Shown one piece after another: positions 21,935 through 28,066 of a stretch of DNA of 64,000 nucleotides. Each line of letters opens with the position of its first letter. Position 1 is the first letter of the stretch. The notes under the pieces were generated by a model. That model saw only the letters and a program-made list of their open reading frames with translations, searched no databases and was not told the origin of the DNA. The translations under genes and the position numbers were made by a program. Origin of the DNA: Gammaproteobacteria bacterium (GTDB lineage: Bacteria > Pseudomonadota > Gammaproteobacteria > SZUA-140); the NCBI GenBank assembly GCA_016218365.1, contig JACREF010000007.1, positions 1-64,000 on the forward strand. Reading direction: 5' to 3'.

Positions 21935-23951
<2,017 letters not shown>

Positions 23952-24005
23952 CCGCGTTTATCGCTTCTTTATACGCCGGTCATTCCCGCGAAAGCGGAAA
24001 TCCAG

Positions 24006-24040
24006 TTGGTAGGTTGGGCTGAATGAAATGAAGCCCAACT
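24006..24040 (+). repeat. GTTGGG hairpin repeat, left copy
   Basis: TTGGTAGGTTGGGC opens a 34-bp unit with stem GTTGGGCT (24013-24020) and AGCCCAAC (24032-24039). The same unit occurs inverted at 27129-27163 with about two differences. The pair brackets the accessory island. Confidence 0.8.
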
Positions 24041-24131
24041 ATATTGAGCCCGGCTATCAACAGAAGGGCGGGGTATTTTAATCCTTCCGTCCCCGTTTTC
24101 CGCGCGGGTTCAAATGAAAGGATAGGCGAGT

Positions 24132-24929
24132 ATGAAAAAATATTTTGGATCATTGTTCCTTTTGGTTGCCGTTTCTCTTGTAAATGCAGCGGGGGCAAAG
24201 TCGCTGAAGAAAGGTGATATTTACAGGGTGTTGAATGGGAGAGATGCTATAGAGGTTATTTCAAGTAGTGAATTAGAGATAACCGCGGAAGGGATAACCG
24301 GAGAAAATACGCTGCTTGCTGAGTATGATTTTAAAGGGGATAAGCTGCGTGTGGTAGCCAATGTTCTGGGGACAAAGATGGTCACGTACTATTTGCTAAC
24401 AAATGAAGGGCTGGAAGACGAAAAGACAGGGGAGGTTTACTATTCTGGGGCTGCATTAAAAAAGGCCAAATTCAAAGAGGCGGCTGAATTAAAAAAGGCC
24501 GAATTAAAAAAGGCGGCTGAATTAAAAAAGTTGATTTCCACTAATGGCACCGAGGTCACCGACCCAAAAACAGGGCTGATCTGGCGGCGTTGTAGCGAAG
24601 GCATGAATTGGGATGGTGCAAGCTGCGCCGGTGTCGCCAGCCGTTTTAATCACGAGGAAGCCTTGCTGCAGGCCGCAGCCCAGGCCAGCAGCACCGGCAT
24701 GGCTTGGCGCTTGCCGGATGTAGAGGAACTTGAAAGCCTCTTCAACTGGATCGAATCGGGGATTGACCCCATAGTTTTTCCGGATACGCCAGCGGATGCG
24801 TTTTGGTCTGCCTCGCCCTACGTGGGCTACTCCGGCCTCGCCTGGAGCGTCTATTTCGGCAATGGCAACGTCCACTTCAGCCTCCGCAGCTTCAGTTACT
24901 ATGTGCGGTTAGTGCGTGCCGGTCAGTGA
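24132..24929 (+). CDS. Exported DUF1566 (Lcl) protein with a DGR-type variable C-terminus
   Basis: The 265-residue protein has a signal peptide (residues 1-20, LFLLVAVSLVNAAGA), an AT-rich N-terminal region of unknown function (about 22-105) and a lysine/alanine helix with ELKKA-type repeats (about 107-135). A GC-rich C-terminal Lcl/DUF1566 domain begins near DPKTGLIWRRC. The end has the framework AW.V.F.NGNV......YVRLVRAG. Between 24819 and 24902, 26 of 28 codons end in C or T, against about half in the 33 codons before. The exposed positions (Y, G, S, L, H, F, R) are all one- or two-step changes from AAY codons at positions 1 and 2. This is what adenine-specific retromutagenesis leaves. No reverse transcriptase is nearby. 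Confidence 0.8.
   Translation: MKKYFGSLFLLVAVSLVNAAGAKSLKKGDIYRVLNGRDAIEVISSSELEITAEGITGENTLLAEYDFKGDKLRVVANVLGTKMVTYYLLTNEGLEDEKTGEVYYSGAALKKAKFKEAAELKKAELKKAAELKKLISTNGTEVTDPKTGLIWRRCSEGMNWDGASCAGVASRFNHEEALLQAAAQASSTGMAWRLPDVEELESLFNWIESGIDPIVFPDTPADAFWSASPYVGYSGLAWSVYFGNGNVHFSLRSFSYYVRLVRAGQ
24819..24926 (+). other. Putative DGR variable region (VR) with IMH-like end
   Basis: Codons here include TAC, GGC, TCC, CTC, AGC, TAT, CAC, TTC, CGC and AGT at variable positions, separated by conserved W, V, F, N-G-N and V-R-L-V-R framework codons. The invariant segment 24903-24926 would be the position of the initiation-of-mutagenic-homing sequence. The assignment is by pattern only: a template repeat was looked for in the window and not found. 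Confidence 0.65.
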
Positions 24930-25133
24930 TTGGGCCGCGTAGCGGCTTTGCGTGCCATTCGGATCAGCTCACTCTGACGCGGGTTTTCCTAAAATAGCTG
25001 ATCAAGTAATAATGAATGTTGTCTGTACGAATGTTCGTCGAAGAATCGCAAAATGGACAGTTCAATTGACGTGGCAAGTTTCAAGATTGGCTCCAGGCGC
25101 GCTCGAAAAAACAAAAATCTGGGTTTTCTATCG

Positions 25134-25160
25134 CGCTAAGGCGCCGACGGGCGCATAGCG
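25134..25160 (-). repeat. Palindrome overlapping the stop of the membrane-protein gene
   Basis: CGCTA (25134-25138) pairs with TAGCG (25156-25160), and GCGCC with GGCGC inside, with a small internal loop. It could terminate transcription or be a remnant recombination site; it lacks clear attC R boxes. Confidence 0.4.
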
Positions 25161-25720
25161 TCCCCGAGGTCGCTCTTGAGCGTGTGGCTGGCCGCGCTAC
25201 GTGTCCTATTGCGGAACCCCGCTAATTCCTTATGATGCATCATTCCTATTATGTAAAAACCAAGACCTAGAGCAAATGCCAAGGTGGCGTGAGAACACGA
25301 CAATTTTAGTAGCGCCATCCCCAAGATGATTGCAGAAAGACCGAGGCGTGTTTCAAACTGAAAAAATAATACGACTCGCGACACATAGGGGTTTTTCAAC
25401 CTCTGTAAATTGTCTACGTAGTAATTCCAGTCACTGTTGAATATCTCCTTGTCTATTCCCATGCACCACGGAGTAATACGATCAAGAATGCATGTCTCGA
25501 TTACTGCCTGAATAGACGCGATGATGGCGCCTAGCAGGGCAACAGCTGCTAACGAGAAAAATGATGTAATGAATTGGGCGTTAGTGGCCCAATCAAGCAT
25601 CTCTTTCAATTGCGATTCCGTCATGCCGTGAAAAATACCCGCAGCAACCGCGCCCAGTATCCCAGGCAAGAGAAACGTAACTAGAATTTCAAAACCAAAA
25701 TTTGTCGGATCTGTTTTCAT
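25136..25720 (-). CDS. Membrane protein of unknown function, possible integron cassette gene
   Basis: I do not recognise this 194-residue protein. Hydrophobic helices lie near residues 9-28 (ILVTFLLPGILGAVAAGIF), 50-72 (FFSLAAVALLGAIIASI), 125-140 and 145-160 (ATLAFALGLGFYIIGMM), which suggests four membrane passes with a loop of about 50 residues. Base composition is AT-richer than the flanking core genes. Its start is 15 bases from an attC-like site, and its stop falls inside a short palindrome (25134-25160). This is the usual layout of a promoterless cassette. Confidence 0.65.
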   Translation of the reverse strand: MKTDPTNFGFEILVTFLLPGILGAVAAGIFHGMTESQLKEMLDWATNAQFITSFFSLAAVALLGAIIASIQAVIETCILDRITPWCMGIDKEIFNSDWNYYVDNLQRLKNPYVSRVVLFFQFETRLGLSAIILGMALLKLSCSHATLAFALGLGFYIIGMMHHKELAGFRNRTRSAASHTLKSDLGDAMRPSAP

Positions 25721-25734
25721 GTTGAGTTATTTGC

Positions 25735-25812
25735 GCCTAACAGCCACATAAGGGGGCGTACTTTTTGCGCGCCCCAGTGATCGAGGCGAACGACTTAATG
25801 TGTTTGTTAGCA
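25735..25812 (-). other. attC-like integron recombination site
   Basis: Read on the minus strand, the 78-bp site starts TGCTAACA (25812-25805) and ends TGTTAGGC (25742-25735). The right core GTTAGGC fits GTTRRRY. Inside these, CACATTAAG and CTTATGTG pair with one extra T unpaired, after a two-base unpaired spacer (AA against GC). A central GGGGCG/CGCCCC stem fills the middle. This architecture of R box, spacer, L box with extrahelical base and variable terminal structure is that of attC. The upstream gene stops inside the left core, and the next gene starts 15 bases after the right one. No integrase gene is present. Confidence 0.55.
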
Positions 25813-26049
25813 TTTTTTGTAACAAAGATATATTACTACCGGTGTTCCGCGCTTAACTGTATTGATATTATTTTCTAATAAAATTGGTTTAATGTAATCA
25901 TCATGAGCCATTCCTATAGATTGCACTCTGCATTCACATTCTTCCTCTAAGCGTTTTAATGACACCTCAGTTGGCAGCACTAAATGTTTATTTTTTATCT
26001 CGTTCAGAATGTGCTTTGCGACTTTTTGGCCTGCGTCACTTAAACGCAT
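25807..26049 (-). CDS. Small hypothetical protein upstream of the attC-like site
   Basis: The 80-residue protein (MRLSDAGQKVAKHIL...) is mostly helical with a C-terminal strand (TPVVIYLCYKKC) and several cysteines. I do not recognise the family. I chose the ATG at 26049 because GAGGGAG sits seven bases upstream; the frame is open to 26109. It is AT-rich compared with the core genes, and its TAA lies in the left core of the attC-like site, as in a gene cassette. Confidence 0.5.
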   Translation of the reverse strand: MRLSDAGQKVAKHILNEIKNKHLVLPTEVSLKRLEEECECRVQSIGMAHDDYIKPILLENNINTVKRGTPVVIYLCYKKC

Positions 26050-26172
26050 ATGCTCCCTCTCTGATGTTCGTGTGGACGGTTTAGCGACAGGAAAATGGGG
26101 CGGAGGCATTATTTATTAACCACCCGCAATCACTGATCATTGTACAAGTCATCCGATCCGGGTTCTCCTTTG

Positions 26173-26370
26173 CTACGCCGCAATTCCTTCAACAATGAGA
26201 TGGCTTACATCAGTGCGCTGGCTTGCATGCTCGAAGGTGATGGCGCAGATGTTACCTTTTTCGTCGGTTTCAAGAATGGTGTTTTCGTCCAGTCCCCTGG
26301 ACTCTGCGATGTTGCTGTCGCGGAACTCGATGTACAGCGTGTCAGTGTCTTCAAGGTAGCTGACTTTCAT
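26173..26370 (-). CDS. DUF2283 family small protein
   Basis: The 65-residue protein begins MKVSYLEDTDTLYIEF and contains SRGLDENTILETDEKGNICAITFEHAS, the compact beta pattern of DUF2283 (MkvsYD.e.DaLYI......v...dGki.giEi..AS). These small proteins are common on accessory islands and near toxin-antitoxin-like gene pairs, but no function is established. It follows the 108-residue gene by 61 bases on the same strand and probably shares its transcript. Confidence 0.75.
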   Translation of the reverse strand: MKVSYLEDTDTLYIEFRDSNIAESRGLDENTILETDEKGNICAITFEHASQRTDVSHLIVEGIAA

Positions 26371-26431
26371 GGTTTGTACCTTTATCCCTGATTCGCGGCG
26401 GTTGACTGTTTTTTGGCTATGCCACAGGCAT

Positions 26432-26758
26432 TCACCGGACTTGGGGTTTGGTGTTTTTTGGTTCAGTGGCTTTAAGCAATTCAGCAGACAGGCCTGCCAG
26501 CTGGTGATCTTCCACCAAGCCCTCGCTGCGAATAAGCATCAATTGCAATTGTGCCTTTGACCTGCTGTGACCATCAAATAGCAGGCCCAGTCGCTTATCT
26601 GCGTTTTGTACCAGCTTAAAGAGATATAAATACCTTCCGTGATTTGACATGTCTTCTTTTTCGATAGCCGCTACAAAATCCGCCATGGCGTCTGCACAAA
26701 ACCGTTCCAGCGCCTCATCTTTTATTCTTTTAAATTTTTTCCAGTCAGATTCCTTCAT
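26432..26758 (-). CDS. Small charged helical hypothetical protein
   Basis: The 108-residue protein is almost entirely helical (KKFKRIKDEALERFC, then RYLYLFKLVQNADKRLGLLFDGHSRSKAQLQLM). Proteins with this pattern occur as hypotheticals on proteobacterial islands, often next to a DUF2283 gene as here. The four-helix character made me consider the DGR accessory protein Avd, but length and motifs do not convincingly match. No function can be given. Confidence 0.6.
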   Translation of the reverse strand: MKESDWKKFKRIKDEALERFCADAMADFVAAIEKEDMSNHGRYLYLFKLVQNADKRLGLLFDGHSRSKAQLQLMLIRSEGLVEDHQLAGLSAELLKATEPKNTKPQVR

Positions 26759-26965
26759 GATCTTTTGTCTTGATATGCCCTAACTGCCATCAGACGGCAA
26801 AAAATGCCGAATTCCCGGCCCGTGCCGTAAACATCCCGCGACGCCGGATATCATGGCACACTTCCGTGTTAACGACCCTTCGACTATGCCACAGCCGTTT
26901 TGATGCTGGCAAGCCGCTGATTGGGCTGGGGCGGGTTAATCCGCGGCAGGATATTATTTTGGACT

Positions 26966-27023
26966 GCGGCGACGTGTCGCCGCTTTAGGTCGGCCTGGGC
27001 CCAAAGCGGCGTCATGACGCCGC
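26966..27023. repeat. REP-like palindrome doublet A (40-bp pitch)
   Basis: GCGGCGACGTGTCGCCGC at 26966-26983 and GCGGCGTCATGACGCCGC at 27006-27023 are each perfect 8-bp stems. The distance between starts is 40 bases, the same as in the doublet at 33496/33536. Confidence 0.8.
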
Positions 27024-27128
27024 ACCCGCCCTCCCCACAAGCGGGCGCGGGGGGATTCGTTGGCTGGAGAGAGGATTAATTCCGTGAGTACGGGGGCGTA
27101 GTGACCAATGTCCGGGTTGATGGTTGAT

Positions 27129-27163
27129 GGTTGGGCTTCATTTCATTCTGCCCAACCTACCAA
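27129..27163 (-). repeat. GTTGGG hairpin repeat, right (inverted) copy
   Basis: The reverse complement reads TTGGTAGGTTGGGC followed by AGAATGAAATGAAGCCCAACC, matching 24006-24040 with about two differences. It is the opposite boundary of the accessory island. Confidence 0.8.
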
Positions 27164-27215
27164 GCTTTCTCCGCCACAGGCTCTCTCTTCGACCCTCTCC
27201 GACCCTCTCCCCAGC

Positions 27216-27247
27216 CCCTCCCCCGCGTGCGGGGGAGGGAGGTTTTT
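27216..27247 (+). repeat. GC-rich hairpin before the bamD stop
   Basis: CCCTCCCCCGC (27216-27226) pairs with GCGGGGGAGGG (27229-27239), and a T-run follows on the plus strand (27243-27247). It faces the 3' end of bamD, so it would serve plus-strand transcripts leaving the island. It may equally be a dispersed repeat of the kind common in related genomes. Confidence 0.5.
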
Positions 27248-27992
27248 ACAGTGCCGGGGTCTTGTTCAGCTCGATGACGCGCTGCGTGTCGGCGGCGAGA
27301 TCGGTCAGGCCGAGGCGGGTGTAGGCATCGGCCAGCAGTTGCAAGGTGTCGGGGACCACCGAGGTCTGGTCGAACTCTTCAAGGATGTGACGGCCACGGC
27401 CGGCGGCGGCGACAAAGGCGCCACGTCGCATATAGTAGCGGGCGACGTTCAGTTCATAACGTGCCAGATAATCGCGCAGGTAGATCATCCGTTGCCGCGC
27501 ATCGCCGGCATAGGCGCTGTCCGGGAAACGGCTGACCAGTTCGGCGAAATATTGCAGCGCCTCCTCGGCGGCGCGCGAGTTGCGCAGCGCCGGATCGCGC
27601 TTCAGCAGCCGGTCGAGGGTGCCGCTGGTCTGCTTGAAGGTGGCCAGGCCGCGCAGGTAATAGGCGTAATCGACATTCTTGTGGCGCGGGTTCATCTTGA
27701 TGAAACGGTTGGCGGTGGCCAGCGCCGATTCGGGCTCATCGTTCTTGTAATAACTGTAGGCGATGTCGAGCTGCGCCTGCAGCGCGTGGCTGCCGAACGG
27801 GTATTTGACATCCAGCTCCTCGAGGTGCTGGATCGCCAGCTGGTAATCGCCGGCCTGCAGCGCCTCGTGTGCCGCGGTATACAGCTTCTCCTCGGCCGCG
27901 TTGTCGCCGCCGCTGACACCGGGGGTCGAGGCGCAGCCGCCGAGCACAAGCAGCAGCGCCAGCACGGCGATCCATAGCAGGGTGAATCTCAT
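27246..27992 (-). CDS. bamD: Outer membrane assembly lipoprotein BamD
   Basis: The 248-residue lipoprotein has a signal sequence ending in the lipobox LGGC, then five TPR-like repeats (YTAAHEALQAGDYQLAIQHLEELDVKYPFG; QAQLDIAYSYYKNDEPESALATANRFIKMNP). The C-terminus (VARYYMRRGAFVAAAGRGRHILEEF) is characteristic. BamD is the essential scaffold of the Bam complex that folds beta-barrel proteins. I chose the ATG at 27992; the frame is open to 28046, and there is no strong ribosome-binding site at either position. A second BamD-like gene lies directly upstream on the same strand. Confidence 0.93.
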   Translation of the reverse strand: MRFTLLWIAVLALLLVLGGCASTPGVSGGDNAAEEKLYTAAHEALQAGDYQLAIQHLEELDVKYPFGSHALQAQLDIAYSYYKNDEPESALATANRFIKMNPRHKNVDYAYYLRGLATFKQTSGTLDRLLKRDPALRNSRAAEEALQYFAELVSRFPDSAYAGDARQRMIYLRDYLARYELNVARYYMRRGAFVAAAGRGRHILEEFDQTSVVPDTLQLLADAYTRLGLTDLAADTQRVIELNKTPAL

Positions 27993-28066
27993 CGATGGCA
28001 GCGGCAGCATGATCGGCACGGTCCTGGCGAGTGTAGGTCGGGGCAATTATAGGCGATCGACGGTCA

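Follow-up and report, generated by a model that had tools for sequence, protein, structure and literature searches.

Genes carrying a variable region (VR) of the kind written by diversity-generating retroelements (DGRs), yet standing apart from any reverse transcriptase (RT) or template repeat (TR), have been described in two groups of bacteria. Treponema denticola isolates without core DGRs keep target genes that lack both RT and TR, and these have been read either as leftovers of a lost system or as genes acquired alone (PMC4891356). In cyanobacteria, all3226 is a remnant whose VR has no RT nearby, remote C-type-lectin variable proteins with grafted N-terminal domains are encoded far from the RT, and removal of the machinery once an optimal variant has been selected has been proposed (PMC7517822). 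Of the Pfam domains that occur in DGR targets, DUF1566 is reported to be the commonest (PMC6642488), and the domain that gave the Lcl_C/DUF1566 family its name, the C-terminal domain of Legionella Lcl (8q4e/8qk8), binds glycosaminoglycans (PMC11162425).

Here we analyzed an open reading frame of 265 aa, P0001 (24132-24929, forward strand), in a 64-kb stretch of a gammaproteobacterial contig, referred to as the window. Like the T. denticola orphans it appears to be a VR gene without RT and TR, but it lies in a foreign island, has another domain architecture and lacks a known matching TR, which for T. denticola exists in sister isolates (PMC4891356). With the cyanobacterial remote proteins it shares a putative C-type-lectin-type domain, separation from any RT and a grafted N-terminus; those genes are tied to DGRs via TR-VR homology (PMC7517822), whereas no homologous TR was found in the genome of P0001. 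Legionella Lcl shares the Lcl_C/DUF1566 domain, but P0001 has no collagen-like stalk and its Lcl_C part yields just a weak profile match to 8q4e (E 0.057). Orphan DGR targets are thus already known from T. denticola and cyanobacteria, and P0001 adds to them an island context and a template-aligned codon test. We consider it moderately probable that P0001 encodes a formerly DGR-diversified, horizontally acquired binding protein that is now frozen without its machinery.

Architecture of P0001 and its genomic island

P0001 is the sole Lcl_C gene of its genome, and all of its parts described below lie on the forward strand. Inspection of the N-terminus (MKK, a hydrophobic run and NAAGA) points to a probable Sec signal peptide at aa 1-22 (24132-24197), and the product is probably exported. 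By sequence and Pfam comparison, an N-terminal domain of unassigned function and without Pfam match follows (24198-24452), succeeded by a Lys/Ala/Glu-rich linker in which inspection revealed repeats (KKAELKKAAELKK; 24453-24530). The first 127 residues (24132-24512) share 64-67% identity with the N-terminus of an ankyrin-repeat protein from a Thermodesulfovibrionia MAG (L016), and P0001 is therefore a mosaic. The N-terminal domain has apparently been shuffled between phyla.

The only Pfam domain of the open reading frame is Lcl_C (DUF1566; aa 142-262, 24555-24917), matched by PF07603 at E 7.9e-24 and 84.6 bits against a gathering cut-off of 34.9. An earlier note, made from the letters of this DNA alone, had proposed a DUF1566 C-terminus with conserved framework motifs, and both are present. 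The Lcl_C family is described as C-type-lectin-like, and DUF1566 domains are common outside DGRs. The putative VR (24819-24902) lies at the 3' end of the gene and stops about nine codons ahead of the stop codon; by codon count, its 15 variable columns (aa 232-254) all carry codons ending in C or T (NNY). Sequence comparison places a constant tail, GTGCGGTTAGTGCGTGCCGG (VRLVRAG, 24903-24922), directly behind it, at the position where an IMH-like tail would stand. A single-sequence AlphaFold model of the domain was set aside (pLDDT 33.5), and PHROGs and PDB searches with the single P0001 sequence returned nothing useful.

The gene is contained in a 3.3-kb low-GC island (23952-27245) delimited by GC content and synteny, with about 40-58% GC versus 61-69% in the flanks; the fall between glnB and bamD starts from a level of about 64%. 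The flanks of the empty site are glnB, encoding P-II (23613-23951, forward strand), on the left and bamD (yfiO; 27246-28046, reverse strand; PF13525, E 1e-65) on the right. The reverse strand of the island, between 25136 and 26758, carries a DUF2283 gene (26185-26370) and three open reading frames for which Pfam gave no hit. Family relatives that conserve the NAD synthetase-glnB pair have a bamD-like lipoprotein gene next, sometimes with a nitroreductase-like open reading frame intervening, and no homologue of P0001 occurs at this site in them; among the relatives, the genus is represented by one genome. In a plasmid search, the island DNA had no match and all Lcl_C matches stayed below 60% identity.

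Codon footprint of the putative variable region

A recount gave 26 C/T-ending codons among the 28 of 24819-24902 and 17 among the 33 directly upstream, in agreement with the earlier note. None of the 3,599 stretches of 28 codons in neighboring core genes reaches 26. Conditional on the encoded amino acids, 15 of the 16 codons that have a synonymous choice carry C or T at the third position, where 8.5-10.7 are expected (P = 0.0009 with core-gene usage, 0.00025 with the usage of P0001 itself and 0.009 with the upstream Lcl_C part only). Leucine is encoded twice by CTC, whereas C/T-ending codons make up 16% of Leu codons in neighboring genes. On codon usage alone, the pyrimidine-ending bias goes modestly beyond chance, the Fisher and codon-usage P values being moderate (0.00025 to 0.016). 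The additional argument that all variable codons are reachable from AAC or AAT is true but empty, because any NNY codon can be reached from AAY; the tests that do inform about the VR are the choice among synonymous codons and the alignment to real templates.

For calibration across the class, NNY codons were counted at the 15 columns in a sample of 111 Lcl_C domains from 369 class genomes and family relatives. Where a DGR targets Lcl_C (two genomes), the mean NNY fraction is 0.97 and 18 of 22 domains, one of which is the template itself, reach 15/15. Genomes without a detected DGR RT yield a mean of 0.73, with 15/15 in 3 of 58 domains (P0001 excluded), and none of the 25 domains from genomes unchecked for an RT reaches 14/15 or more. 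P0001, in which all 15 variable columns are AAY-derivable NNY codons set in a constant framework, behaves like a real variable region in this comparison, the rate of false positives being about 4-5%.

Lcl_C domains with 15/15 despite no detected DGR RT were found in three genomes (G066, G249 and G267). The first of these (2.0 Mb, 100% complete) has at least eight Lcl_C loci, including L037, L108, L125 and L132, several of which score 14-15/15, and searches of it with the DGR-RT profile and the generic TR pattern found no DGR RT and no template. Its paralogues differ at a fraction of 0.62 of third positions, compared with 0.68 and 0.65 of first and second positions; among the G134 paralogues, which belong to a true DGR, third positions are conserved (0.31 differing). 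As G066 scores high without shared third positions, the NNY score by itself is not proof.

Alignment with complete systems and viral templates

Two genomes of the same class as the source, G079 (L086) and G134 (L087), harbor complete DGRs adjoining Lcl_C targets and served as positive controls. Their RTs match RVT_1 at 51-54 bits; the small gene beside the RT is a sub-threshold bAvd match in G134 and is assigned by sequence resemblance alone in G079. In both systems, the differences between template and targets fall on A. Both resemble P0001 in the Lcl_C domain, in the segment that is diversified, in the AAY columns and in the VRLVR tail, but their RT, Avd-like gene and TR adjoin the target, whereas P0001 has none of these.

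The G134 template encodes FWSASAYANNSNNAWNVNFNNGNANNNNKNNAFQVRLVRA and the corresponding segment of P0001 reads FWSASPYVGYSGLAWSVYFGNGNVHFSLRSFSYYVRLVRA, with 40 codons aligned gap-free. All 15 AAY codons of the template are NNY in P0001. At codon positions 1 and 2, mismatches occur at 22 of 34 template-A sites versus 8 of 48 non-A sites, a result that is supportive but not specific, because differences at Asn columns are to be expected of every Lcl_C loop. It is the third-position test, rather than this A-site mismatch test, that carries weight for the P0001 footprint.

The tail CGGTTAGTNCGT of P0001 is common to the template and the VRs of the G079 DGR. Just past the stop codon follows a small inverted repeat, GCCGC-GTA-GCGGC (24934-24946, forward strand; 5-bp stem, 3-nt loop), located at +31, the same offset as that of the 8-bp hairpins after both G079 VRs. 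Homing of BPP-1 requires a downstream hairpin, and the GC-rich stems of phage DGRs measure 7-10 bp and carry a 4-nt GRNA loop (PMC3240598). The likeness of the P0001 repeat to such a target-site trait is only suggestive and may be due to chance, because its stem has fewer base pairs and ~5% of other homologues have short stems of this kind; folding of the whole region is ordinary (z 0.15). The hairpins of the two G079 targets (L086, reverse-strand offsets 1542 and 4207) themselves differ in stem sequence and have 3-nt loops, as opposed to the 4-nt GRNA loops of phage DGRs, and the G079 template copy is without a hairpin.

Viral templates were approached by back-reversion: the variable codons of P0001 were set to AAY and a viral collection was scanned for the nucleotide pattern of AWNVNFNNGNVN. 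A total of 49 viral contigs contain this pattern as a template, and in 46 of them a protein with a DGR-RT profile match is encoded as well. Aligned with viral templates such as AWNVNFNNGNVNNNHRNNN, P0001 agrees at 7 of the 8 framework residues, and each of the 11 Asn columns is occupied by an NNY codon. No contig of the viral collection matches the exact A-or-same pattern for the VR core, and the closest viral TR shows 27 non-A differences from the VR over 129 bases. Scans of a phage collection and of viral proteins, performed with the Lcl_C part and with the N-terminus, yielded no relatives.

Machinery search and origin of the gene

According to the earlier note, template and RT would lie elsewhere in the same genome, where a near-copy of the VR beside an RT gene should be sought. 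The assembly, which comprises 2.26 Mb in 33 contigs and is 97.16% complete, contains one RT above cut-off, a group II intron RT/maturase of 461 aa (L012, contig C11:20261-20884; profile match) with 410 bits to TIGR04416 and a GIIM domain. The DGR-RT profile detects only this enzyme, at 92 bits versus 535-557 in the positive controls. Four template searches of the assembly came back empty: two by BLAST, one for the VR and one for the predicted TR, and two by pattern, one A-only IUPAC (3 mismatches) and one a generic TR pattern that recovered both the G079 and the G134 TR at 0 mismatches. With the predicted TR as query, BLAST returned the VR at 123 bits, and all other matches were chance ones of 14-19 bp. 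Neither a DGR-clade RT nor a template repeat was thus found in this 97%-complete draft, which, within the limits of such a draft, is the outcome that the earlier note had named as refuting its reading. The window, island included, holds no RT, Avd-like gene or remnant of either. A DGR-type variable region stays the best reading of 24819-24902 as judged from its sequence, and an RT is indeed missing nearby; the placement of the machinery within the genome found no support, and in our best model a location elsewhere in the genome gives way to absence from the genome to the extent that it is assembled.

A weak BLAST match on contig C18 (38 bp, 79%, E 0.03) was dismissed as chance, as were 2-mismatch matches of the generic TR pattern in this genome and in G066, the context of which is not AAC-rich. 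Matches of the A1 profile in other family members were not accepted as DGR RTs, because group II RTs match this profile too.

The empty searches count more heavily against an active remote target within this genome than against a former DGR target. An active target would draw on an RT, accessory gene and template located on a piece missing from the draft, be it extrachromosomal or left out of assembly or binning, such as a plasmid or prophage. The fragmented draft is in keeping with this, precedents exist for remote targets and for DGRs with several targets (PMC7517822, PMC6642488) and G134 appears to have one, the 15 variable codons show no visible third-position decay, and P0001 resembles the G079 target site in its tail and its small hairpin. 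We nevertheless regard it as unlikely, given that the assembly is without RT and TR and the window without RT or Avd remnant, that the only Lcl_C gene of the genome sits in an acquired island, and that the phage collection and viral protein scans hold no Lcl_C relative. It would be highly improbable, in our estimate, that the VR is still rewritten in trans by the DGR of a passing phage or plasmid or, in a milder form, that pre-diversified foreign domains are routinely captured via N-terminal shuffling; if rewriting in trans were true, a host gene would be the target of another genome's mutator.

Alternatively, the Lcl_C domain of P0001 might be an ordinary one without any history of DGR diversification, and its run of NNY codons would arise from a Y/G/S/N/F-rich loop composition combined with codon preference, or from chance. 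About 5% of the domains from genomes without a DGR RT reach 15/15 and 20% reach 14/15, several such domains are found in G066, which has neither a DGR RT nor a TR and whose paralogues do not keep third positions in common, the P values are moderate and DUF1566 is widespread beyond DGRs. P0001 nonetheless scores like verified VRs and above all but few non-DGR homologues, it uses the locally rare C/T-ending Leu codon CTC twice, and its framework equals a common framework of DGR templates; we rate this explanation as rather doubtful.

Under the favored reading of a formerly diversified protein, P0001 would be exported, its N-terminal domain and charged linker bearing the C-terminal Lcl_C domain. 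An ancestral DGR would have reverse-transcribed an AAC/AAT-rich template with random errors at adenines and pasted the mutated copy into the 3' end of the gene, converting AAY into NNY codons while the framework was kept, and the exposed loop residues of Lcl_C may once have been written in this way. The gene would then have come into this genome on the small foreign island that now separates glnB from bamD, unaccompanied by RT, Avd or template, and its machinery would have been lost or not transferred. We propose that the putative binding surface is therefore now fixed and altered only by ordinary mutation.

DGR-made binding domains may hence outlive their mutator and travel without it, and surveys that demand a nearby RT would therefore miss part of the DGR footprint. 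One such survey itself states that remote targets are undetectable by its approach (PMC8144416). The calibrated NNY test at template-aligned columns offers a way to seek orphans in RT-less genomes.

In the draft genome G134, many multi-domain Lcl_C proteins encoded at scattered loci (L087, L101, L102, L104-L107, L109 and L111) appear to draw on one DGR template, and a single protein often carries two variable domains in tandem.
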